Positions 4,893 to 22,535 of a stretch of 22,535 bases of DNA are shown piece by piece. A model generated the notes under the pieces. It had not been told where the DNA came from. It searched no databases and saw nothing but the letters and a program-made list of their open reading frames with translations. The first letter of the stretch is position 1; each line of letters begins with the position of its first letter. Source of the stretch: a virus; IMG/VR virus record IMGVR_UViG_3300027741_000289, positions 1-22,535 of that record. One strand, written 5' to 3'. A program made the position numbers and the translations under genes.

Positions 4893-6605
4893 TTATGTTC
4901 TAATAAAACTGATTTTGTAGGTTAATGTAGTACTCTCACCAGCAGTGTATTCAATATCACCTGTGGTGCTGTTGGCCTGTAGTGCAAAATCCATGCCGTC
5001 ACTTTGATTGTATTCATCGTCCCAGGTATACGAACCCAAGAAATTGTTTACATGTAGTACGCCATTGCGTACCGCACCAGTTTGTTGTACCGAGTAAGTG
5101 ACAGTGAAGTTTGTGGTAATACCATAATCTAGATACTGAACCCCCACACTGGTCATTGACATGGCGGCATCCAATGCCGTTGTAACAGCACTGCGTTCTG
5201 TTGATAGACCGTTGGTGATACCGTTTCTGTCTGCACCCACTACCACACAATCATGACCGTTGGTTTCCACATTAGGAACTCCATGGTCGGTGGTAAGATA
5301 GTTATCAAATACATCACCCATGCTGTAGTGACCATTGGACAAGAATTCAATGGCCGGAACTAATGGGCCATCACCGGCTCTATAGCCATAGGCTGCACCA
5401 GCAAACGAATTTGATGAGGTGGTCACATTTTTAGCTGATTCGCCAACTATGATAGATTGTGCACCGCTGTATCTAAAATAATTGCCCACGATGCTGACGC
5501 CGTAAGTGACATAGTTTCCATCTATCTGGAATTGAGGAGCATCAACTCCAAGATTGATATGATGGTAACATTGATCAAAGTAACTGCTGGTAATTTCAAG
5601 ATTGCGGATTTCACCCACAGTTTGAATACCATAGTTCATGCGTGTGATTTCACAGTCGTGTATTCTAACATCGCGAACAGCTTTGTAGTCGGACCATCCA
5701 GTCAACAGCACAGCGCCCATGCCAACGTCTACGCCAGGATCCGTACGATTGGTATAATAGTTGTCTGTTCCTGACCCATCATCATTGTAGTCAATTAGGT
5801 CGCCTTGAAACAAACAGTTGGACAACACAATGGTTGTTCCGCCATCGGCCTGGAACACTGGTTGATCATAGGTGTCGGCTGTCTGATAGAATCCAATATC
5901 GCTCACATGATATTCGAGACTGTAAGGTCTAACACCATTTACACGAGCACCATAATATTGACCTGATTGCCCAAATTGATCAACGACCAAAATCATGGCG
6001 CCGGTGTCGGTTAGATAAGTTGATGTCAATTCATTGCCGGTGTCGTACACTGTGTTTTTGCGAGGAATATTTCTAGCAATAATTGTACTAGATGTTTTAC
6101 CTTCACCTTGAATACGTGTAAACGGAGGAAGTTTGATAGTATCTGTAATAAGGTAAGTGCCGGCCGGGAAGTAAATTGTTCTATGTGTGATACTGCTGCC
6201 ACCTGCACTGGCTGTGCCTAAGGGCCGATCAAGAGCACGTTGTATGGCCGCGGTATCATCAGCAACTCCATCACCTACCGCACCAAAGTCACGTACACTA
6301 ACAAAGTCATCTAGTTTGTCTTGTAAGGTACGAATAATGGGATTGTTGGCGTCTGGTCCAGTTAAAACTTGGAAACCGGCCAACAAGCCTTTGAATGTGT
6401 AATTGCGACCCAGTGACAGCACATCACTGTATTCTGTAAGAATCTCTGTGACACCTGTGGTAGGTGCGCCTTCTTCTACGGTACCATTGCCGATAAACAA
6501 TCGTCGTTTGTCAACACTCCAACCCAGCTCTGCACTGGCCAATTGCGGAAAGTTTTCTTGAAGTCCTCGACGATGCTGTATTCTCGAGATTTGCACTACT
6601 GCCAT
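4893..6605 (-). CDS. Tail spike / tail fibre with pectate-lyase-type beta-helix
   Basis: A 570-residue virion protein. Residues 1-60 form a short N-terminal module (QHRRGLQENFPQLASAELGW, then RRLFIGNGT) of the kind found at the start of several T4-like tail proteins, probably for virion attachment. Residues 101-180 match the pectate-lyase-3 entry: VRDFGAVGDGVADDTAAIQ, then TIYFPAGTYLIT and RIQGEG. Repeated beta-helix rungs follow to about residue 430, then a beta-rich C-terminal domain. Such proteins bind and often cleave host surface polysaccharide. The catalytic site cannot be read from sequence alone, so enzyme activity is inference. The ATG at 6605 has GGAAC upstream, and a late-like promoter lies in the 30-base gap before it. 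Confidence 0.88.
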   Translation of the reverse strand: MAVVQISRIQHRRGLQENFPQLASAELGWSVDKRRLFIGNGTVEEGAPTTGVTEILTEYSDVLSLGRNYTFKGLLAGFQVLTGPDANNPIIRTLQDKLDDFVSVRDFGAVGDGVADDTAAIQRALDRPLGTASAGGSSITHRTIYFPAGTYLITDTIKLPPFTRIQGEGKTSSTIIARNIPRKNTVYDTGNELTSTYLTDTGAMILVVDQFGQSGQYYGARVNGVRPYSLEYHVSDIGFYQTADTYDQPVFQADGGTTIVLSNCLFQGDLIDYNDDGSGTDNYYTNRTDPGVDVGMGAVLLTGWSDYKAVRDVRIHDCEITRMNYGIQTVGEIRNLEITSSYFDQCYHHINLGVDAPQFQIDGNYVTYGVSIVGNYFRYSGAQSIIVGESAKNVTTSSNSFAGAAYGYRAGDGPLVPAIEFLSNGHYSMGDVFDNYLTTDHGVPNVETNGHDCVVVGADRNGITNGLSTERSAVTTALDAAMSMTSVGVQYLDYGITTNFTVTYSVQQTGAVRNGVLHVNNFLGSYTWDDEYNQSDGMDFALQANSTTGDIEYTAGESTTLTYKISFIRT

Positions 6606-6639: not shown

Positions 6640-7334
6640 TTCATCCTGTAATACTGCTCTACTCGTTTCATCCATTCTGTGTGCCAGTAGGCAAATTCAT
6701 CAGGACCCAGTTCAAACTCTAGGTATTGCGGCGTTTCTGATTGGTCTCGGGGTTTGACACACATGAGAATAACACCCGTGTTAATGTCAGTTCCGTGGGT
6801 TTCGTTGTGTGCTGCCGCATAGGCTGCCAACTGTATAAAGTAATCACCAATGTATTCGCGCTTCTTGACCTTGTTACTCTGCTTGAAGTCCATGATAGCG
6901 GGCCGACCTTTCCATACTCCCACAAGATCTGTGGTACCAGCATATAATCCACTATAATACAGGGGAACTTCTGAACCCCAGTATTCGTTGGCATGACACA
7001 AGCCTTTGAGTATGACTTCAGCAGCCATGAACCACGAGGGCTGTGCAAACGGATTTGAGGGGAAATCGCCAATGTCATCTTCTTTGACATAACGTTCCAA
7101 GTAGGTGTGCATACGTGTGCCACGATTGGCAGCTTCTGTAACAATCTGTTGTGCCCGATCTTCGCCCACTGCCCGACGCCAATTGGCCAGAGCTTGACGG
7201 CTTTCTTCGCTTTTGGTACGATCTAGGATAGTGGTAACGCTGGGAACTTTGCTACCATCTGGTAATGCATAGTGGCGTTTACCTTCAACACTTTCTCTTG
7301 CAAGAGGCGTGTAATCATATTTTTTGATAATCAT
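6636..7334 (-). CDS. RecB/Cas4-like PD-(D/E)XK nuclease
   Basis: A 232-residue single-domain nuclease. The RecB-family motifs appear in order: G72-T-x-x-H76, E122, D136 (YAGTTDLVG), D149-F-K151 (IMDFKQS) and Q168-x-x-x-Y172. These residues bind two metal ions and cut DNA, so an exonuclease or DNA-end-processing role in replication or recombination is likely. Cas4 and AddB relatives hold an Fe-S cluster with four cysteines, but here only two cysteines are present (in GLCHAN and LMCVKP), so a cluster is unlikely although iscA and iscU lie directly upstream. The ATG at 7334 shares one base with the iscA stop (TAATG), which implies coupled translation. The exact substrate is unknown. Confidence 0.87.
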   Translation of the reverse strand: MIIKKYDYTPLARESVEGKRHYALPDGSKVPSVTTILDRTKSEESRQALANWRRAVGEDRAQQIVTEAANRGTRMHTYLERYVKEDDIGDFPSNPFAQPSWFMAAEVILKGLCHANEYWGSEVPLYYSGLYAGTTDLVGVWKGRPAIMDFKQSNKVKKREYIGDYFIQLAAYAAAHNETHGTDINTGVILMCVKPRDQSETPQYLEFELGPDEFAYWHTEWMKRVEQYYRMN

Positions 7335-7657
7335 TAAACTCTAAAACTTTCTCCGCAACCACATCGGTCGCGTTCGTTGGGGTTACGAAATTCAAAGCCT
7401 TCATTTAGGCCTTGTCGCACATAATCTACTGTCATATTTTGTAGGTAAACGTTATCTTTGGCATTGACCAAGACTACAAAATCAGGCTGTGCATAATTGA
7501 TCACATACTGTTCTGGCGTGTACTCTCGTACATATTCTAACACATAAGCCAGTCCTGAGCAACCTGTAGTTTTTACACCAAGTCGTATACCGGCATGGCC
7601 CGTGGCATCCAATAGTTTTTTTATTTTTGTTCGTGCCGCATCAGTTAATGAGATCAT
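7334..7657 (-). CDS. iscA: A-type Fe-S cluster carrier (IscA/ErpA/HesB family)
   Basis: A 107-residue protein of normal A-type carrier length. It has the three cysteines that bind iron or a cluster: C33 in TTGCSGLAYV, and C99 and C101 in CGCGESF at the C terminus. A-type carriers receive clusters from a scaffold such as IscU and deliver them to client proteins. The start overlaps the end of iscU by 17 bases and the stop overlaps the nuclease ATG by one base, so the three are probably translated together. ErpA and SufA share these motifs, so the subfamily is uncertain; the iscU neighbour favours an IscA role. No cysteine desulfurase, HscA/HscB or ferredoxin gene is in the window, so sulfur must come from the host. 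Confidence 0.94.
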   Translation of the reverse strand: MISLTDAARTKIKKLLDATGHAGIRLGVKTTGCSGLAYVLEYVREYTPEQYVINYAQPDFVVLVNAKDNVYLQNMTVDYVRQGLNEGFEFRNPNERDRCGCGESFRV

Positions 7658-8030
7658 GCTTTTTGCGATAGTCGGCTACTGCGGCTTTGATGGCGTCTTC
7701 GGCGAGGATACTGCAATGTATTTTAACAGGTGGAAGAGCCAACTCCTCGGCGATGTCGCTGTTTTTAATACTTGAAGCCTGGTCCAACGACATTCCTTTG
7801 ACCAGCTCTGTGATGAGCGAGGAGGAAGCGATTGCAGATCCGCATCCATATGTTTTGAAACGAGCATCTCTAATAATACCATGTTCATCTACCTTTATCT
7901 GTAATTTCATCACGTCACCACAAGCTGGTGCGCCGACCATGCCGGTGCCCACATCAGCATCGTTGGCGTCAAATTTGCCCACGTTGCGTGGATTCTCATA
8001 ATGGTCAATTACTTTATTTGAATATGCCAT
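7641..8030 (-). CDS. iscU: Fe-S cluster assembly scaffold IscU
   Basis: A 129-residue protein almost collinear with E. coli IscU from the first residue (MAYSNKVIDHYENPRNVG). All cluster ligands are present with the same numbering: C37 and D39 in APACGD, C63 in YGCGSA, H105 and C106 in KIHCS. The LPPVK motif recognised by the chaperone HscA is intact at residues 99-103. IscU builds 2Fe-2S clusters with sulfur from IscS and hands them on. The intact partner motifs suggest this copy works with host IscS and HscA/HscB. The ATG shares one base with the stop of a 43-residue ORF upstream. Such close similarity to a bacterial housekeeping gene points to capture from a host, with function kept. Confidence 0.97.
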   Translation of the reverse strand: MAYSNKVIDHYENPRNVGKFDANDADVGTGMVGAPACGDVMKLQIKVDEHGIIRDARFKTYGCGSAIASSSLITELVKGMSLDQASSIKNSDIAEELALPPVKIHCSILAEDAIKAAVADYRKKHDLIN

Positions 8031-8566: not shown

Positions 8567-8977
8567 TTAACTACGATTTGCAAGAGCCGATTTAGCCATT
8601 GCGCCCACGGTCTTTTCTGGTGGGGTTCTGGGTGCGTTCATGTCTCCAGGCACAGCCGAAAAATCATCTTCGGCATTGCTCTGTAGATAAACATATTTGG
8701 TTCCATTGTCATCATCACTGATGTCTTTGACAAAGTTTTTGACGGTGTCATTGGTTTTGAATGCGTCCAATAGAGCTTCAAGATTAAAGGCTTCAGAACC
8801 AGGAATGCCTTGTACCATGTTGATCAAGGCATCTACACGAATCTTTGGCACCAGGTGTTGGTTACCTGCACGACCTTTTAGGAACTCCAAGGCCGAAATA
8901 AGATTGGCGTCGCCGCGATCAACCGCTTCGTCCTCAATCATCTCAGCATGAAAGTCTGAGAATTCGCGTAGTCTCAT
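8567..8977 (-). CDS. Phage protein of unknown function, probable head/prohead component
   Basis: A 136-residue acidic, mostly helical protein beginning MRLREFSDFHAE, with a Pro/Ala-rich tail after residue 110. Its N terminus shares a pattern with several neighbours (M, Arg/Lys, Leu/Ile, x, Glu, hydrophobic) and looks like the capsid-targeting peptides of T4 internal proteins. The ATG shares one base with the stop of the preceding gene (TAATG), and GAGAGCG upstream can act as a ribosome binding site. That preceding gene has a strong late promoter, so the pair are probably late structural or assembly proteins. I recognise no domain of known function. Confidence 0.72.
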   Translation of the reverse strand: MRLREFSDFHAEMIEDEAVDRGDANLISALEFLKGRAGNQHLVPKIRVDALINMVQGIPGSEAFNLEALLDAFKTNDTVKNFVKDISDDDNGTKYVYLQSNAEDDFSAVPGDMNAPRTPPEKTVGAMAKSALANRS

Positions 8978-9687
8978 TAGCGACGCTCTCTGCCCAGTGC
9001 CTCTGGGCCGCCTGCGGCAGCATCAGTGGCAGCAAACTCGTCACCAGCATCGAGGTCGCTAACCGGAGGCACACCACCAGGAACTTCGCCTGCGGCCATA
9101 CCAGCCATTTCGTCTCCGCCTAGGCTGCTGCCCATTCCCATGTCCATGGGCTGTGCAACTTGTTCACCAGCCAATGCACGACTTGCTGTGTCGGCTGTTT
9201 CTCTGGCAGCACCCAGTTGTGCAGACAGATCAGTGATCATGGGAGTCATTGCTGTTTTGAATTGTTCAGCTTGTTGGGCGCCAATTTGGTCACGGATGCT
9301 GTCCAACAGGGCCGGCATTTGCTCGCTTTGTAGTTTGCTGATTTTTTCTAACATGTCTTGGACACTGTCAACAATGTTCTTGGCAGCCAGGATGGCTTCT
9401 GATTTGGCCATTTCGCTTTCAGTAACAAACTGTTGCTGATTTTCACGCATCCAGCTGTGTATGCTTTCGCGTACCATCAGCATTTCCATGTAGGTAGAGT
9501 TTTTCTCTACGGCGCCGGCGCCGTGGCTACGACGAACTTGGTCAATGCTTTCGCTTAGACCACTGGCTAGTCGGTAGGCTTTTTTAAACGTCAGTTTATC
9601 AAAGTCAATGGCATAACCAAAGCGACTTTCGACCACTTGGTTTAGTTTTTTTGCGGAAGGCTTGGTGCCCATTTCTTGTAGTCTCAT
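8977..9687 (-). CDS. Prohead core/scaffold-type structural protein of T4-like phages (putative)
   Basis: A 236-residue protein. Residues 1-80 (MRLQEMGTKPSAKKLNQVVE, later YMEMLMVRESIHSW) are helical and conserved in appearance with uncharacterised structural proteins of T4-like marine phages. Residues 95-175 form a long coiled-coil-like stretch (SVQDMLEKISKLQSEQMPAL). The tail is rich in Gly, Ala, Met and Asp and is probably disordered. Long helices, an acidic disordered tail and a short MRLQEM N terminus fit a prohead core component, but sequence alone does not prove this. Its start overlaps the end of the 9684-10232 gene by 4 bases (ATGA). A perfect TATAAATA late promoter lies 35 bases before the ATG, inside the upstream gene. 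Confidence 0.7.
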   Translation of the reverse strand: MRLQEMGTKPSAKKLNQVVESRFGYAIDFDKLTFKKAYRLASGLSESIDQVRRSHGAGAVEKNSTYMEMLMVRESIHSWMRENQQQFVTESEMAKSEAILAAKNIVDSVQDMLEKISKLQSEQMPALLDSIRDQIGAQQAEQFKTAMTPMITDLSAQLGAARETADTASRALAGEQVAQPMDMGMGSSLGGDEMAGMAAGEVPGGVPPVSDLDAGDEFAATDAAAGGPEALGRERR

Positions 9688-11710: not shown

Positions 11711-12847
11711 TCAATTAGGTGTCCAACGATGTCTAGGTACCAGTTTGGTATCTCGATATACCCAACCCTCGCCGCCAGGAACACCTTCAGTTGAGGTACG
11801 TATCTGCGGTGTTTGTTGATCCAATTGATCAATGATGTCGTTCTTGATATCTCTAATGGATTCAACTAAGCCAAATACCGCCTTCAAACCATCGGGGTTG
11901 GTTTCTATTTTGTCCACAAAGGCCTGCATCTTTTTAGGGCCCAGTGTGGTCTGTACCCAAGGTAAAAACTGCGATTCAAGACCTTCCAAGTTGCCTTCTT
12001 TGCTCTTGGTGTTAACAAACGCATAGATATCACTGCCGGGACTGGACAACCCGGGTACACCCGATAAAAATGCATCCACCGCTTTGCGTGTACGAGCCGA
12101 CAGTTTTAGTGACTTGACATAGTTGGCGTCAATCACTGCACCTTGATCTGCAAAGTAAGATCCCAGTATGACCAACTGTGAACTGGCAGAGGGATAGTAT
12201 AGTCCTTGACTGGTCCGGAATTGTTCTAACCGAGGCATCTTGCCTGCATCCTTGTCGCCAAAACGTTTTAGATATTTGTGTACTACCACTGCGGCTTTGG
12301 CTTTGTACAGCAGATTTCCCAGTTCAACGGGATTACCTTGATCATCGGCCACTGGTACCATATAGGTCACTTTGTTGGGAGTAAACACCAGCTCTTGACG
12401 TTTGACATCGTATGGTTTGCCTGGATAAAACAACATGTCACCAAAGAAATAACCACGAAAGTTTTCTGGAGTACCGGCTTCAAATATGTGCCAAGCAGAA
12501 GCCATGTCTGCGGCAAACTGTGCTCGCCAATCTTCACCCTTGCCACGACTCATGATAAACTGTTCTAGTTCGTCGGGACTGGTAGCAAAGCCGCCTTGAT
12601 CTGCTTTGTCCCAGTTGTTTTTGCCCACAAACACAAACTGACCGTTGGGCTCTCTGCCCCAGTACACCGTGGGGTTGCCGTCCCACTTTAGACTGTAGTC
12701 TTTGCCAGTGGCTTCTGTGGCCATGTGACGTAAGTATTCCAGCGCACGGTCTGCGCCTGCAGATCCTTCTGTGAACACAAGATCCTCTAGGTGATTAAAC
12801 TCGCGTCCAATCTTGGCAGCTTCTACTAGTAATTCTCTGGCTCTCAT
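11711..12847 (-). CDS. Ligase/nucleotidyltransferase-like protein with KxDG motif, possible capsid-targeted protein
   Basis: A 378-residue protein. LKWDGNPTVYWG places K54-x-D-G57 like motif I of covalent nucleotidyltransferases (DNA/RNA ligases, capping enzymes), where Lys carries AMP. YFFGDMLFY near residues 133-141 resembles motif III. E360-G-W-V-Y-R with K368 at the C terminus resembles motifs IV and V. The motif order is right, but I-to-IV spacing is longer than in small ligases. I chose the ATG at 12847, since it overlaps the upstream stop (ATGA). This start gives MRARELLVEAA, which looks like the T4 internal-protein targeting peptide with an LxE prohead-protease site. It is adjacent to and coupled with a polymerase-beta-type nucleotidyltransferase. 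Enzymatic activity is inferred from motifs only. Confidence 0.68.
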   Translation of the reverse strand: MRARELLVEAAKIGREFNHLEDLVFTEGSAGADRALEYLRHMATEATGKDYSLKWDGNPTVYWGREPNGQFVFVGKNNWDKADQGGFATSPDELEQFIMSRGKGEDWRAQFAADMASAWHIFEAGTPENFRGYFFGDMLFYPGKPYDVKRQELVFTPNKVTYMVPVADDQGNPVELGNLLYKAKAAVVVHKYLKRFGDKDAGKMPRLEQFRTSQGLYYPSASSQLVILGSYFADQGAVIDANYVKSLKLSARTRKAVDAFLSGVPGLSSPGSDIYAFVNTKSKEGNLEGLESQFLPWVQTTLGPKKMQAFVDKIETNPDGLKAVFGLVESIRDIKNDIIDQLDQQTPQIRTSTEGVPGGEGWVYRDTKLVPRHRWTPN

Positions 12848-13626
12848 CGAAACATCTCGCTGATCTGTCGCAGCCATTGTGTGCTGCCGGGCTGTACACT
12901 TTCGGGCAGTGTCAGCAGGCCCTTGGCCTGATCATCACGTGCCTGTGCCAATTTGGCATCACGGTTGGGATCGTTAGCTAGACTGGCCATGATTGTTTTT
13001 ACACTGTTCAAGTCGTCGGCATTGGCCTGTGGATTCAAAAGTATTTTGGCCACAGCATCTCTCTCACGGGCGACCACCGTGTTGTCTTCACGACTTATCA
13101 GTTTGGCACCAAATGCATCAAACTTCAAGTTCAATGATTTGGCAATACTGCTGATCAACAAGAATATGGGAGAACCTCGAAAGTCCGGATCTGCATACAT
13201 GCCTCTGGGACCGTGTTGATGATAGGGTGCAACAATGTGTACATCGTGTATGACCATTAGGTCAACCTGTGCATAACCACCATCTGTGACTTTGCTGGCA
13301 TAAGGAACACCAATGCTGACATTGCGTCCGTTGACATTGGCTTCAATATTTTTGGCAGCAAAGAACTGCGCCAAGGCCTGTTTGGCGGCCTTGACTGGAT
13401 CCTTTGCGTCTTGGGTTTTGAACAAAGTCACAACATCTTCAGCTTCAACCATTAGATCAATATCGCCTGACTCTACCTTGTAGCCTGCTGAACCGATATC
13501 AGTCTGCATACGTTTTAACAAGGCAGGCGGTGCCAGTCGTTGAGCAATAGCAACCACTGCAGGCACATCTTCTTTGGCTACAGGGCGACTTGTGGGTATG
13601 GCGTTGCCGCCTTCTAATAGTATCAT
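12844..13626 (-). CDS. Polymerase-beta-superfamily nucleotidyltransferase
   Basis: A 260-residue protein with the nucleotidyltransferase signature: G45-S46 in TDIGSAGYK, D55-x-D57 in SGDIDLMVEAE, and a third acidic residue D122 in YAQVDLMV. These acidic residues bind the metals for nucleotide transfer in tRNA nucleotidyltransferases, MNT-type enzymes and polymerase beta. The C-terminal half is helical and ends LRQISEMFR. I chose the ATG at 13626 (MILLEGGNAIPTSR) because it overlaps the upstream stop as ATGA; a longer frame from 13653 would add nine residues inside the previous gene. It overlaps the ligase-like gene the same way. The substrate is unknown; a nucleic-acid end or a protein are both possible. 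Confidence 0.75.
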   Translation of the reverse strand: MILLEGGNAIPTSRPVAKEDVPAVVAIAQRLAPPALLKRMQTDIGSAGYKVESGDIDLMVEAEDVVTLFKTQDAKDPVKAAKQALAQFFAAKNIEANVNGRNVSIGVPYASKVTDGGYAQVDLMVIHDVHIVAPYHQHGPRGMYADPDFRGSPIFLLISSIAKSLNLKFDAFGAKLISREDNTVVARERDAVAKILLNPQANADDLNSVKTIMASLANDPNRDAKLAQARDDQAKGLLTLPESVQPGSTQWLRQISEMFR

Positions 13627-15095
13627 CTTCTTCGGGATTTCATTTTGCGCCACAACACTTCGCCAAGGTCAATACTGTCTTCAAGTTGACTTACTGGCTG
13701 ATTTAGAAATGAAGGTTCTGCTTGAGCCGCGGCACGTCTCCGTGCAACTTCTCTGCGCCCAACATATTGAGAACTCTTTGGATCATCCCACCCTAGAGCC
13801 GTGTTTGTAGCAGGTGTAGAATACGAGCTTGGCGGAATAACTCTTCCTGGTGCCTGATATGAACCGTTTCCTGCAGCCATGGTACCTGTTGCATTGCCAG
13901 TAGCTGACATATTTGTAGGTGCTGTTGGTGCTATTGGTATTGGCGCTGTCGGGGTCGGTGCTGTCGGTGCTGTAGCCTCCGGTGGCGGCATATTGAGTGT
14001 AGGATCAAATCTTGGGTCATTTCTTCTACGCATTACCGACGGTGTGTCTGTGGTAGTAATAGGTGTGGTTTGTCTTTGTGCAAGAACATCTGCGGCCGGT
14101 GCCGAGTTTGTAGTATCTATGTTAGTGGGTGCCGCGGGCAGTATGGCATCGGTGTTTCTATATGATTGTATTGCTTGATCAGATTGTCGTTGTGTTGGAG
14201 CAGGTGCTGGTGGTTGAGTTTGTGGTGCAGGTGCCGGTGGTTGTACGTGTATCTCAGAATTTAAATAAGCATCATGTTGTTTGTTCAAAAAGGCCTGCAT
14301 AGCCTGGCTTTCTGGTCTTTTGGGATTCTTGACTGGTGCCCAAATACCGTTATCGTTCAATGCATAGTCGGTATTTTTGAAGTTGATTATGATTGGTTCT
14401 TCGCTGGTTATGGATACCCCAGACGATAATCTTGGTCCAGCGTTTCGGCCGGCGCTGGTGTTGAATCCTTGTAAAAGTTTGGCATTCTCCCGTGTGTATC
14501 TGCCCATAGTCGTATAAAACACGGTTTGCATTTTTTCGTTAGCCGGTGTACCGGCTTCGTCTACCCATTTTCCTGATGCATCATCAATGCTGTAATTTTT
14601 ACCAGAAAAAGTCAATGTTGGATCTGCATTTGGATTAGAGGCGCCGCCGGTGATGGTCAGCCCTGGTACGTCAGTTTTGATTGGTTCTTTGGTTGGCTGT
14701 GCCCGTAAACTGGCTGACGCTCTGTCGGTCCAATTGTCGGCATCCGGTGCGTCTCTCATGGCAGCTGCCAGGCTCTGTCCGGTGACCGTGGTAATATATT
14801 CATTAACACCCTTTGGTGTCATGTCAGTTGGTGCAGGAACATCTGGAATATTTGGTGCGGCCTTTTGTACAAACTGTTGCAGAGCAGATGGGTTTTTTTG
14901 TAAAGTGGGATCCATGGCCACTGATTGATTCCATTTACCAATAAGATTATCGGCCACACTATTTCTAGTGGCTCGACCCTGTGCCTTTTGACCGACCAGT
15001 GGTGCATTGGCTTTGATGGTATTGATTCCGGATCTTAACGAGTCCATTACACCTTCGTCTAGTTTGTGTTGATTGTCAATTTCTTTAATCTTCAT
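13623..15095 (-). CDS. Pro/Ala/Thr-rich phage protein, probable virion or internal head protein
   Basis: A 490-residue protein. Residues 1-60 are helical, beginning MKIKEIDNQHKLDEG, which has IxE and LxE sites of the T4 prohead-protease type. Residues 90-280 hold folded-looking segments, including two similar units (LTFSGKNYSIDDASGKWVDE and INFKNTDYALNDNGIWAPV). Residues 285-420 are a low-complexity Pro/Ala/Thr linker. The end is basic (LGEVLWRKMKSRRR). I chose the ATG at 15095, which has AGAAAGA upstream and overlaps the preceding gene by 11 bases; the frame to 15134 adds 13 residues without support. The stop overlaps the nucleotidyltransferase start (ATGA). The function is unknown. Confidence 0.72.
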   Translation of the reverse strand: MKIKEIDNQHKLDEGVMDSLRSGINTIKANAPLVGQKAQGRATRNSVADNLIGKWNQSVAMDPTLQKNPSALQQFVQKAAPNIPDVPAPTDMTPKGVNEYITTVTGQSLAAAMRDAPDADNWTDRASASLRAQPTKEPIKTDVPGLTITGGASNPNADPTLTFSGKNYSIDDASGKWVDEAGTPANEKMQTVFYTTMGRYTRENAKLLQGFNTSAGRNAGPRLSSGVSITSEEPIIINFKNTDYALNDNGIWAPVKNPKRPESQAMQAFLNKQHDAYLNSEIHVQPPAPAPQTQPPAPAPTQRQSDQAIQSYRNTDAILPAAPTNIDTTNSAPAADVLAQRQTTPITTTDTPSVMRRRNDPRFDPTLNMPPPEATAPTAPTPTAPIPIAPTAPTNMSATGNATGTMAAGNGSYQAPGRVIPPSSYSTPATNTALGWDDPKSSQYVGRREVARRRAAAQAEPSFLNQPVSQLEDSIDLGEVLWRKMKSRRR

Positions 15096-15345
15096 TGCGT
15101 ATCTTTCTGACCCCACGGGTAAATTTGGCGGCATCTTGACTGCGTATGCTGTTGAGTAGTCTACGTTCTAACTCGGCGGCCTGTTCGGCATCGTAGTTTT
15201 CACGTATGTAGTTGACCAGATTAATGGCACCTTGGATCACATGGTTGGCACGACTTTCCACAAGATTTTGTTTGTCTCTATGGGTCAACAGGCTGTCCAG
15301 TTCGTCCAAGATACTACGGGTACGCTTTTGCAAGATAGGCTCCAA
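15085..15345 (-). CDS. Small helical conserved phage protein (TTG start)
   Basis: An 86-residue, fully helical, charged protein with the phrase RANHVIQGAINLVNYIRENY and the ending FTRGVRKIRNED. It has no methionine codon in frame. A TAG stop lies three codons before the TTG at 15345, so the start must be this TTG or a later TTG such as 15333. No strong ribosome binding site precedes it. It lies 10 bases after the helicase stop and overlaps the next gene by 11 bases. I associate the sequence with uncharacterised T4-like phage proteins; function unknown. Confidence 0.68.
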   Translation of the reverse strand: MEPILQKRTRSILDELDSLLTHRDKQNLVESRANHVIQGAINLVNYIRENYDAEQAAELERRLLNSIRSQDAAKFTRGVRKIRNED

Positions 15346-19292: not shown

Positions 19293-19739
19293 GTGTCACG
19301 AGAGTTTTGGCAGAGTCTTGTTTGGCCAGCGGCACCCAACCTAGATGACTATGATGTATTCAAAAATTTCTGCTCAGGGCGTGTGTTGCTGTTAGGTAGC
19401 ACACGACTTTTACTGCCTTTGTGTACTGAAGCCTGGGATCTTGAACCTGTGTATGATGATCCCAAAATCCGGCAAAGAGATTGGTTCAGCATGGATAGTT
19501 ATTGGGATACTGTCATCATCGATGGCGGTCTGAGCTACGGCAAGGAGTTTGCAGATCGTTTGTTGCCCACGGTATTAAATAACTGTGATAGGTTTGTTAG
19601 TCGTACATTTTTGAACCCTTCGTGGCCCACTACCTATGCTGTCTATTTCCCACGTGCAGAAGAATTAACACCAGTGCCCCAAGAACACAAAATAAACCAA
19701 GTTTACTCATTTTACATATGGAATCAAAAACAATCTTAG
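19293..19739 (+). CDS. Methyltransferase-like Rossmann protein (GTG start)
   Basis: A 148-residue protein beginning at a GTG one base after the oxygenase stop. GRVLLLGSTRLLLPLCTEAW near residue 29 resembles motif I of class I SAM-dependent methyltransferases, DLEP the acidic end of strand 2, and WDTVIIDGGLSYG the strand-4 motif. The chain is short, and the usual GxGxG loop is only GST, so a true catalytic role is uncertain; it may be a degenerate or minimal member. The 3' end overlaps the QueC-like gene by 22 bases in another frame. Substrate unknown. Confidence 0.55.
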   Translation: MSREFWQSLVWPAAPNLDDYDVFKNFCSGRVLLLGSTRLLLPLCTEAWDLEPVYDDPKIRQRDWFSMDSYWDTVIIDGGLSYGKEFADRLLPTVLNNCDRFVSRTFLNPSWPTTYAVYFPRAEELTPVPQEHKINQVYSFYIWNQKQS

Positions 19740-20311
19740 CCATGTATTCCGGAGGACTGGATAGTCTAGGAATGATATATCATATGCTAACTGATGCCGC
19801 ATATCAGGCGTATGATCTACACATACATCATGTTCATAACCGAAACATAGAAAATCGAGATCGGGCCGAAGCCGTGGTAGTTGAGCAAGCTCTAGCAGAG
19901 CTACGCAGACTGGGCTTTGAGTTTGAGTACAGCACCAGTGCCATTGCCGCACCGACCTATAACCAACAGTTCTTGTACGACTCAGACACCATGAACTTTT
20001 TTGCCGGATACATTTGTAGTGTCAATCCCGCAATAACAAAAGTGGCCATGGGCATGAATGCTACCGACAGTAATCATGCGCTAGAAGAGCGTAGACACCG
20101 TGCCAATAACATATTGGGTGCATTTACTTCAGTAGAGAAAATATATCCTGTGTTGAACTTGACCAAACGTGAGATATACGATTCGTTGCCCGAATCACTA
20201 AGAGATAAGTTTTGGAGTTGTCGAACTCCTATTTACAACGAAACAACAATTGATGCTTGCGGCCGATGCAAGAGTTGTTTACAAATAGCAAGAGCCGGAA
20301 TTGAGGATTAA
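19718..20311 (+). CDS. QueC-like PP-loop ATPase
   Basis: A 197-residue protein. The PP-loop that binds ATP is SGGLDS at residues 11-16. The C-terminal zinc site of QueC is preserved as C168, C181, C184 and C187 (SCRTP, then ACGRCKSCL). QueC makes preQ0, the 7-deazaguanine precursor; many phages use such genes to modify DNA or tRNA. No QueD, QueE, FolE or transglycosylase gene is in the window, so the substrate could also be another carboxylate activated by ATP. It is somewhat shorter than E. coli QueC (231). I chose the ATG at 19718, inside the previous gene, because the PP-loop strand starts right after it; the frame back to 19622 adds 32 residues unlike any domain. Confidence 0.75.
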   Translation: MESKTILAMYSGGLDSLGMIYHMLTDAAYQAYDLHIHHVHNRNIENRDRAEAVVVEQALAELRRLGFEFEYSTSAIAAPTYNQQFLYDSDTMNFFAGYICSVNPAITKVAMGMNATDSNHALEERRHRANNILGAFTSVEKIYPVLNLTKREIYDSLPESLRDKFWSCRTPIYNETTIDACGRCKSCLQIARAGIED

Positions 20312-20812: not shown

Positions 20813-22535
20813 TTAGTTTTGAACCATCCACTTGTCTGTTTCCACTTTAAGGATTGTGACATAAGTGTCTGCTGGTATATTAATACTGGCATCTGCACCA
20901 AACTTGCTCAGTATCAGGGTAGTGACTCCACTGTTGGCTGACTGTACAGTGGTCGAGTGTGAGCTGCCTGTGACTAAGGTAATGGTTGTTCCTACAGGAA
21001 ACTCTACACTGGCATTGGTCGGAACCAACACTGCACCTGTACCTGTTTTGTAAATGTGTTTGCCAATGTCTGTCAGTGCCAGAGTATAATCACCGTTGGC
21101 CGACTGCAAATTCTGTTCCAATACACCGGCTGCAGAAACTGTATAAGTCAACTCATGCGTCTCTTCATCGTAATAGACACTGTATGTTGTATTGGCAATA
21201 TCTTCACGCACAGGGTTGATGTACAAACCTTGGTTGGTTGTATTCAATGTGGAGCTACTGGCATTGATTACAATACTATTTGTCATTTGACAGCATTGAC
21301 CAGCTTTGTAGCCGATGGCCACTGCATATTCGCCTTGGCAGTTTTCACCAGCATAACTACCAATGGCCACTGCGTTTTGGCATTGGCAGCATTGTCCTGC
21401 ATGATTGCCAATGGCCACCGATGAATACGATTGGTTATATTGACCAGCTTGATAACCGATGGCCACAGCATGATTGCTTTGGCAGCAATAACCAGCTTGG
21501 TGTCCAATGGCCACTGTGTCTTCGCCTTGACACGCATTGCCGGCGGCACGACCGATGGCAATGGCATCAGAATTTTGATTATAACTGGCAGCACATGATC
21601 CGATAGCCACCGAGTGATCGCCTTGGCCTCCACTGCGGCAACTGCCACAGCCGCAGCAGTCGCAATAGCCTTGACCTGCATATTCACCAATGGCCACAGC
21701 CCCATTGCCTTGACAGTACCGTCCAGCGTACGGTCCAATAGCCACTGATTGGCAGCATTGGCAATATTGTGCGGCATAGTTGCCGATGGCCACTGACTGT
21801 TCACACTGGCAGCAATATCCAGCCCAGTTGCCAATGGCCACTGATGCATAGCACTGATTGTACTTGCCGGCATAGTGACCAATGGCCACAGCATGATTGT
21901 TTTGATTACGATAACCAGCATTGTGTCCAATGGCCACGGTGTCGTCGCCTTGACAGCAATAACCGGCGGCTCGCCCAATGGCAATGGCACTACAGCCTTG
22001 GTTACATCCGCAACAGCCGCTGCCTGCACAAACACCAATCGCAATTGAATGGCAACCTTGGCAGTATTCACCAGCACCTTGACCAATGGCAATGGACCCT
22101 TGACCTTGGCAATAATGTCCTGCATCTGCACCCACAGCAACCGCATATTGTTCTTGGCAATACATACCGGCTCTACGACCCACTGATGTGGCGTGATAAC
22201 CTTGGCAGCAATAACCTGCTAAGTGTCCAACTGCTGTGGCACCTGTGCCTTGACTGCAATTACCAGCGGCACGACCAACTGCGGTAGCAACATAACTTTG
22301 ATCGCAATTACCTGCACACGAGCCAATGGCCACCGAATGCTCACCTTGGCCCCAACGTCCTGCGTATTCACCAACTGCGACCGAACCGTAGCTTTGATTA
22401 CACTCGCCGCCACCGTAGCCAATGGCCACTGCACGATTTTCTTGATTTTGTTCACCAGTATAAGTACCAATGGCCACAGCATCATTACCTTGATTATAAC
22501 TGCCAGCATGGTAACCAACTGCAATTTGATTGTTG
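20813..22535 (-). CDS. Cys-rich YadA-head-like repeat fibre protein, 5' end missing
   Basis: At least 574 residues are visible, and the frame is open at the right edge, so the true start is outside. About 25 units of 16 residues follow the pattern [A/S]-V-A-I-G-x-x-A-G-x-x-x-Q-G-x-x, as in the left-handed beta-roll heads of trimeric adhesins. I count 40 cysteines, all in the repeat part, often as CCQ or CxCC at the turn positions; two units carry longer Cys-rich insertions. The C-terminal 150 residues are non-repetitive and Cys-free (GLYINPVRED, TLALTDIGKHIY, KVETDKWMVQN), like trimerising ends of T4-like tail fibres. A receptor-binding or adhesin role on the virion is inferred. The many cysteines are unusual for an extracellular fibre of this type. 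Confidence 0.85.
   Translation of the reverse strand, partial: NNQIAVGYHAGSYNQGNDAVAIGTYTGEQNQENRAVAIGYGGGECNQSYGSVAVGEYAGRWGQGEHSVAIGSCAGNCDQSYVATAVGRAAGNCSQGTGATAVGHLAGYCCQGYHATSVGRRAGMYCQEQYAVAVGADAGHYCQGQGSIAIGQGAGEYCQGCHSIAIGVCAGSGCCGCNQGCSAIAIGRAAGYCCQGDDTVAIGHNAGYRNQNNHAVAIGHYAGKYNQCYASVAIGNWAGYCCQCEQSVAIGNYAAQYCQCCQSVAIGPYAGRYCQGNGAVAIGEYAGQGYCDCCGCGSCRSGGQGDHSVAIGSCAASYNQNSDAIAIGRAAGNACQGEDTVAIGHQAGYCCQSNHAVAIGYQAGQYNQSYSSVAIGNHAGQCCQCQNAVAIGSYAGENCQGEYAVAIGYKAGQCCQMTNSIVINASSSTLNTTNQGLYINPVREDIANTTYSVYYDEETHELTYTVSAAGVLEQNLQSANGDYTLALTDIGKHIYKTGTGAVLVPTNASVEFPVGTTITLVTGSSHSTTVQSANSGVTTLILSKFGADASINIPADTYVTILKVETDKWMVQN
21287..22535 (-). repeat. Tandem 48-base coding repeats of the fibre gene
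   Basis: Roughly 25 in-frame 48-base units continue to the right edge. A higher-order copy is visible: the units starting RAAG-YCCQGDD (about 21963-21991) and RAAG-NACQGED (about 21540-21568) begin matching four-unit blocks 423 bases apart. This equals eight units plus a 39-base insertion, suggesting block duplication followed by divergence. Confidence 0.88.

Follow-up and report, generated by a model that had tools for sequence, protein, structure and literature searches.

In phage T4, gp21 cuts proteins after L/I-X-E, the leader of IPIII alone sends proteins to the head, and propeptides are 7 to 65 residues long (PMC9026906). IPI-III, Alt and gp24 of T4 and the leaders described below share a start of the form M[K/R]xxE[I/F][I/L]xE↓[A/S/G] (the arrow marks the cut), with propeptide lengths mostly in the same range; in the T4 record, IPII and IPIII begin with MKTYQEFIAE↓A and gp24 with MAKINELLRE↓S. 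To our knowledge, no nucleotidyltransferase or ligase is among the known packaged proteins of T4, and no polymerase/ligase-type pair is known as phage head cargo.

Gap filling and sealing by a polymerase X and a ligase joined in one protein have been demonstrated for PgVPolX of Phaeocystis globosa virus (PMC5537341). The ligase gene g30 is reported in a review to be absent from cyanomyoviruses, and a distant homologue was named there as a possible, less probable option (PMC2984593). In this study, a 22.5-kb phage fragment (IMG/VR record IMGVR_UViG_3300027741_000289; 22,535 nt, hereafter the window) was analysed, in which a nucleotidyltransferase-like gene (NT) is coupled to a ligase-like gene (LIG).

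Gene layout and predicted folds

Three genes on the minus strand of the window are chained by two ATGA overlaps. A 503-aa Pro/Ala/Thr-rich gene (13623-15134) overlaps the start of NT at 13626-13623, and NT (12844-13626, 260 aa from ATG) shares its stop with the start of LIG (11711-12847, 378 aa from ATG) at 12844-12847. Alternative starts are possible for NT at a GTG at 13653, 9 codons upstream, and for LIG at an ATG at 12877, 10 codons upstream. Helicase and primase genes adjoin the pair, and the same strand carries an 86-aa virion-protein family (15085-15345; phrog_11854, head and packaging; 46% identical to its PA5oct homologue gp259), a 236-aa virion-protein family (8977-9687; phrog_14154) and a 136-aa gene (8567-8977). 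No tRNA genes were found in the window. The T4 late-promoter sequence TATAAATA has two exact minus-strand sites in the window, neither of them before NT or LIG, and in the 333-kb relative G003 it occurs below the count expected from base composition.

Several other genes of the window resemble known families. A NifU/IscU-like iron-sulphur cluster gene (7641-8030, minus strand; PF01592, 1.5e-53) adjoins an IscA-like gene (7334-7657, minus strand; PF01521, 1.7e-17), and a QueC-like gene (19622-20311, plus strand; PF06508, 1e-5) may serve deazaguanine modification of DNA or tRNA. A 554-aa protein of short AVAIGxxAGxxxQ-type repeats (20813-22477, minus strand), YadA-head-like at 3e-5, is probably a fibre, and a tail-spike-like protein (4893-6605, minus strand) combines an Mtd N-terminal domain with a pectate-lyase-like fold (PF12708, 2e-23).

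The features of the polymerase-beta nucleotidyltransferase superfamily, namely the GS motif, DxD, a third Asp and a predicted palm fold, are all present in NT. Its motif residues are G45, S53-G54-D55-I-D57 and Q120-V-D122, with the catalytic D55-x-D57 encoded at 13456-13464 and D122 at 13261-13263 (minus strand). In an alignment of IMG/VR relatives, D55, D57, Q120, D122 and G45 are invariant (39/39) and S46 is kept in 37/39. The AlphaFold2 model (pLDDT 85, pTM 0.78) matched DNA polymerases lambda and mu in the PDB by Foldseek (E 3e-6, probability 1.00, about 200 aligned columns); the best 50 listed matches were all Pol lambda/mu, entries in which the PDB is rich. NT resembles these family X polymerases in its palm, its thumb-like C-terminal part and the GS..SGD[I/M]D pattern with a third Asp, and by eye the SGD[I/M]D spacing and the thumb-like stretch past the third Asp agree with Pol X. 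It differs from solved Pol X in its 260-aa length, its short N-terminal part and its lack of detectable sequence homology: the NT alignment profile found no Pol X among solved structures at E<=10, and Pfam gave no Pol X match. Pol X usually has Arg before the third Asp, where NT has Q120, and YFTGS where NT has QHGPRG. No family was matched in Pfam or PHROG, and direct tblastn against INPHARED phages gave no match. The model supports NT as a polymerase-beta-type nucleotidyltransferase, more precisely one of Pol X-like fold. A cellular origin of NT was considered, and a pattern-limited profile search of genome contigs gave no relative.

LIG is a full-length member of Pfam DUF6267 (PF19782; E 3e-17, 63.5 bits against a cut-off of 27), with residues 28-383 aligned to profile positions 5-365 of 376, and the match was found in all 33 aligned relatives. 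The motifs of covalent nucleotidyltransferases are conserved in order (all on the minus strand): motif I, K54-W-D-G57 with the presumed adenylated lysine (12677-12688; 33/33); motif III, G136-D137 in the predicted strand 132-141 (12437-12442; G 32/33, D 33/33), which is GD and not GE, with the consensus G-D-[L/M/I/V]; motif IV, E360-G361 (11765-11770; 33/33); and the motif V lysine K368 (11744-11746; 32/33). H190 and K335 are also invariant (33/33). Since identity between members of these families falls to about 23-30%, motif conservation in both NT and LIG is far beyond chance. The AlphaFold2 model (pLDDT 85, residues 1-17 disordered) has the topology strand-KWDG-strand-strand ... strand-GD ... 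EG-strand-K, in which motifs and strands follow each other as in a ligase core. Between motifs III and IV lies a stretch of about 220 residues, most of it helical beyond residue 240; only about 10-30 residues follow K368, almost nothing for an OB domain; and the KxDGxR arginine is absent, position 59 being P, I, A or V and never R among the 33 relatives.

Comparison with named ligases was less decisive. No PDB fold match of LIG reached E<=0.001 and the best ligase stood at E 0.34, although 11 of the 50 weak matches listed were RNA or DNA ligases. In BFVD, DUF6267 relatives took the top 13 places, and about 13 of the 37 matches listed below them were ligases; the best ligase-annotated viral match was an 'RNA ligase' of Agrobacterium phage Atu_ph07 (E 4e-3). 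RNA ligases and the tRNA ligase Trl1 were prominent among the listed matches. LIG shares motifs I, III, IV and V with Rnl2/PF09414 RNA ligases and differs from Rnl2 in the long stretch between motifs III and IV and in the lack of profile similarity. Two specific identities were rejected: a T4 gp30-type DNA ligase (hhalign E 0.31 over 9 columns, with neither KxDGxR nor a C-terminal OB domain) and an Rnl2 RNA ligase (hhalign E 0.56, out of register). A sequence search of solved structures with both families returned chance matches only. By its motifs LIG therefore appears ligase-like, with no named ligase family supported by the profile comparisons; the motifs, the predicted topology and the enrichment of ligases among weak fold matches are suggestive of a ligase, and we regard ligase-type chemistry as somewhat probable.

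The initial annotation had described this place as an ATGA-coupled pair carrying two different nucleotide-transfer folds. The coupling was confirmed, with both ORFs on the minus strand, and its residue numbering proved exact for GS...DxD...D (D55, D57, D122) in NT and for K54-x-D-G57, GDM as motif III, EG and the later Lys in LIG; KxDG and EG are kept in every one of the 33 homologues. Structure prediction and fold search bore out the fold proposed for NT and left that of LIG at the level of suggestion, with no significant PDB ligase match.

Leaders of the capsid-targeting type

Two observations are added here to the initial annotation, namely the membership of LIG in DUF6267 and the capsid-targeting-type leaders of both proteins. 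NT starts with MILLE (13612-13626, minus strand) before GGNAIP, giving a predicted prohead-protease site LLE↓GG that follows the T4 rule. LIG starts with MRARELLVE (12821-12847, minus strand) before AAKIG, with a predicted site LVE↓A, as read from the leaders of relatives and the disordered N-terminus of the model. Nearly all members have these shapes, M..[LI]xE↓GG in NT and M.....[LI]xE↓[AGS] in LIG, which are those of the T4 IPII, IPIII and gp24 starts; unlike the T4 internal-protein propeptides, the leader of NT measures only some 5 aa. The 503-aa gene also bears a leader (MKIKEIDNQHKLDE↓G), as do relatives of the 136-aa gene (for example MRAREFIIE↓N and MRIHEFLSE↓D) and neighbouring nuclease-, ADP-ribosyltransferase (ART)- and kinase-like genes.

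Leaders were counted under a strict rule, [LI]xE[AGS] within 20 residues of a start, with the other genes of the same loci as controls. The strict leader was found in 27/30 non-redundant LIG proteins (30/30 when relaxed) and in 23/27 NT proteins, compared with 52 of 397 controls (13%), many of whose full leaders belong to neighbours in the same cassettes. Fisher tests gave 7e-19 for LIG and 2e-15 for NT, values that are overstated as relatives are not independent. The NT variants of four loci (L015, L021, L042 and L045) and of the cultured jumbo phages Phosso, Atu_ph07 and PA5oct have no leader, and leaderless variants begin at MGGKAIP, the predicted mature end. In fused proteins, a cleavage-type site lies between the domains: LYE↓A between NT and LIG in L064, and VIRE↓GG (in L017) or IIKE↓GG between the 503-aa gene and NT, which are joined in L017 and L040.

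Neither gp21 nor gp23 is present within the window fragment; both are present in G003, whose gp23 contains LLAE↓S. Only 7 of the 407 ORFs of G003 have a full leader: LIG, three tandem kinase-like genes, one NT2-acetyltransferase-kinase-like protein (NT2 is described below) and two unassigned. The three kinase-like genes lie beside gp23 (L094 14190-15903, minus strand, equal to genome positions 174190-175903), and the one tested matched phrog_15752 (2.8e-14), the phage protein kinase known as an inhibitor of transcription in the host; the trio are candidate injected kinases. In Atu_ph07 (L156 11646-17835), at least eight tandem ART-like genes contain YRGM and most start with M[RK]W.QL[TN]E. The first of them matches phrog_11975 at 1e-107, and the array has the appearance of a large repertoire of Alt-like effectors for injection.

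DUF6267 proteins of phages with non-cyanobacterial hosts have leaders too, LVE↓D in Pelagibacter phage HTVC008M, ITE↓D in Methylophilales phage Melnitz and LAE↓S in Stenotrophomonas phage DLP6. In Melnitz and HTVC008M, the gene immediately preceding DUF6267 (L105 6887-7972 and L080 6941-7999) has the leaders FLSE↓A and NLSE↓A, respectively, and by eye a nuclease-like PKTD...SLK pattern.

The window cassette is syntenic with one of phage PA5oct, where the helicase, the 86-aa family, NT and the 161-, 236- and 570-aa families correspond to gp260, gp259, gp253, gp250, gp247 and gp243. GenBank carries an ESI-MS/MS structural-protein note on gp253, the leaderless NT homologue, and on gp250, gp247 and gp243. 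The ribonucleotide reductase subunits of PA5oct bear the same note, so this detection is no proof of packaging. Given the leaders, we consider it likely that NT and LIG are packaged in the phage head, and their likely site of action is therefore the newly infected cell.

Distribution of the pair and of DUF6267

The initial annotation had proposed co-occurrence across phage genomes as a check, and the pair is conserved. LIG lies downstream of NT, on the same strand and within 2.7 kb, in 65 of 77 loci with NT. The sequence ends within 0.85 kb of NT (contig ends) in 10 of the 12 loci that lack LIG, and the other two have 1.4 and 2.7 kb. The two genes form one open frame in L064, with NT before LIG, and in L065, which is cut by the contig end. 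The L064 fusion and PgVPolX share the polymerase-then-ligase order from N- to C-terminus; PgVPolX differs in having a ligase part that is NAD-dependent-ligase-like, unlike LIG, in an algal host, and with no head-targeting leader described.

About 30 loci (9 non-redundant) hold a further nucleotidyltransferase of the GS..GDID type, NT2, placed between NT and LIG. NT2 (L006 8494-9522 and relatives) has the pattern E↓GGWDTT...GRPTGSSAYHEKD...GDIDLQM...QVDLMW, and matches no Pfam or PHROG family; in L025 and G003 it is joined to acetyltransferase domains. Other NT/LIG cassettes hold genes that are nuclease-like or ART-like by motifs read by eye; a Pfam search of these genes detected neither identity.

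Distant NT homologues were found in the three jumbo phages: Phosso p447 (3.5e-18), Atu_ph07 a77 (2.6e-15) and PA5oct gp253 (1.9e-13). The gene that NT overlaps in Atu_ph07 and Phosso is not LIG but another one of the KxDG ... EG type, matching PF09414 RNA_ligase weakly (E 0.002 and 0.085). The Atu_ph07 partner has 324 aa, matches PF09414 over residues 4-248, and has the same length as the best ligase-annotated fold match of LIG. PA5oct has a third KxDG/EG protein, gp256, three genes upstream of its NT homologue. The pairing of a polymerase-type with a ligase-type protein therefore recurs with different ligase-type partners. Alignment of LIG with the three ligase-like proteins by hhalign was in register and weak (best E 0.005 and 0.013). 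A motif IV-V pattern, written after the sequences had been seen, occurs in 22/33 LIG proteins, two of the jumbo-phage proteins and 0/928 background sequences, and this sharing is treated as a hint. Searches of IMG/VR for wider families of the Atu_ph07 ligase and the Phosso NT found nothing outside their own genomes.

LIG is not peculiar to the window phage. DUF6267 (phrog_455) is found in hundreds of cyanophages and also in pelagiphages, with the same KWDG ... GD ... EG ... K core and an HxED start. The cyanophage proteins differ from LIG in lacking the leader and in having a 'cytidyltransferase'-like neighbour in place of NT. This neighbour follows DUF6267 (L079 9177-10250, L081 9167-10222 and L083 9155-10234), is apparently fused to it in S-PM2, and represents a different nucleotide-transfer partner of DUF6267. 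That NT itself might stand beside DUF6267 in cyanophages and pelagiphages was rejected, as the upstream genes fail the NT profile. In these cyanophages DUF6267 is located among gp43, uvsX, gp41 and gp61. Six complete Kyanoviridae genomes with DUF6267 gave no match to PF01068, PF09414 or PF01653, of which the first two score in T4. We regard DUF6267 as a candidate for the ligase that cyanomyoviruses appear to lack.

Proposed role and alternative readings

We propose, at a confidence a little short of even, that NT and LIG together make up an end-repair unit of Pol-X/ligase type, which a T4-like jumbo phage packages in its head and injects with its DNA; repair as their role is proposed just as tentatively. 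The proposal builds directly on the motifs, the coupling and fusion of the genes, the Pol X-like predicted fold and leader conservation, and from these we infer cleavage, packaging, ejection, substrate and catalysis. The short N-terminal leaders would send both proteins into the prohead core, where a gp21-type protease would trim them after L/I-x-E, and the mature enzymes would be ejected into the host along with the DNA. In the cell, NT, with its Pol X-like palm and thumb, may extend an end or fill a short gap, and LIG, as a covalent nucleotidyltransferase acting through K54, may activate and seal the extended end. Repair of the incoming phage DNA, or of damaged RNA, would precede any phage gene expression. 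The initial annotation had likewise proposed an end-modification and sealing unit; the nucleotidyltransferase, the conserved ligase-core motifs and the conserved pair agree with it, and a profile match of LIG to T4 DNA ligase or Rnl2 was not obtained.

The choice of substrate separates this proposal from a reading in which NT adds 3' nucleotides to RNA and LIG rejoins tRNA or other RNA that has been cleaved, countering defences of the anticodon-nuclease type right after entry. RNA is favoured by the RNA-ligase-like partner in Atu_ph07, by the prominence of RNA ligases and Trl1 among the fold matches listed for LIG, by the missing KxDGxR and C-terminal OB domain of canonical DNA ligases, and by a separate DNA ligase already present in G001, G003, XaC1 and DLP6. 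DNA is favoured by the Pol X fold of NT, whose best 50 listed matches are DNA polymerases and not CCA-adding or poly(A) enzymes, and by replication synteny, with helicase and primase adjoining the pair; the window also has no tRNA genes. We consider RNA-end repair unlikely. We give somewhat less credence still to NT, and perhaps LIG, being part of an injected arsenal and using host proteins or small molecules as nucleotide acceptors, with repair not their job. The packaged host modifier Alt of T4 offers a precedent, the same leader stands on ART-like (L050, L055 and the Atu_ph07 array), GNAT and kinase-like genes of the same cassettes or genomes, and NT2 often sits between the two genes; nevertheless, nucleic acid is the better fit to a polymerase X fold whose C-terminal part is thumb-like, to an obligate ligase-type partner and to the exchange of that partner for another of its type.

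Finally, the pair may serve ordinary intracellular replication and repair, with DUF6267 as the ligase of these phages, NT as a gap-filling helper and L/IxE starts that are no packaging signal. The adjoining helicase and primase genes, the six Kyanoviridae genomes with no recognisable DNA or RNA ligase, the reported absence of g30 from cyanomyoviruses (PMC2984593) and the leaderless cyanophage DUF6267 are in line with this account. Nevertheless, the leader is far commoner than in controls and common to unrelated proteins, virion proteins flank the pair, and a further DNA ligase is encoded by G001 and G003. We find this account improbable. A broader scheme, in which large T4-like phages inject a Pol X and DUF6267 gap- and end-repair machine before transcription and leaderless DUF6267 is the overlooked ligase of gp30-less cyanomyoviruses, is put forward as a rather unlikely extension of the end-repair proposal.

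In uncultured phages, injected effectors (kinase-, ART-, GNAT- and nuclease-like) can be listed simply by means of the leader. DUF6267 makes a published question testable, namely whether cyanomyoviruses are truly without a ligase (PMC2984593) or have DUF6267 as one. If the proposed end-repair unit is real, injected enzymes could start the repair of the phage genome, or counter-defence.
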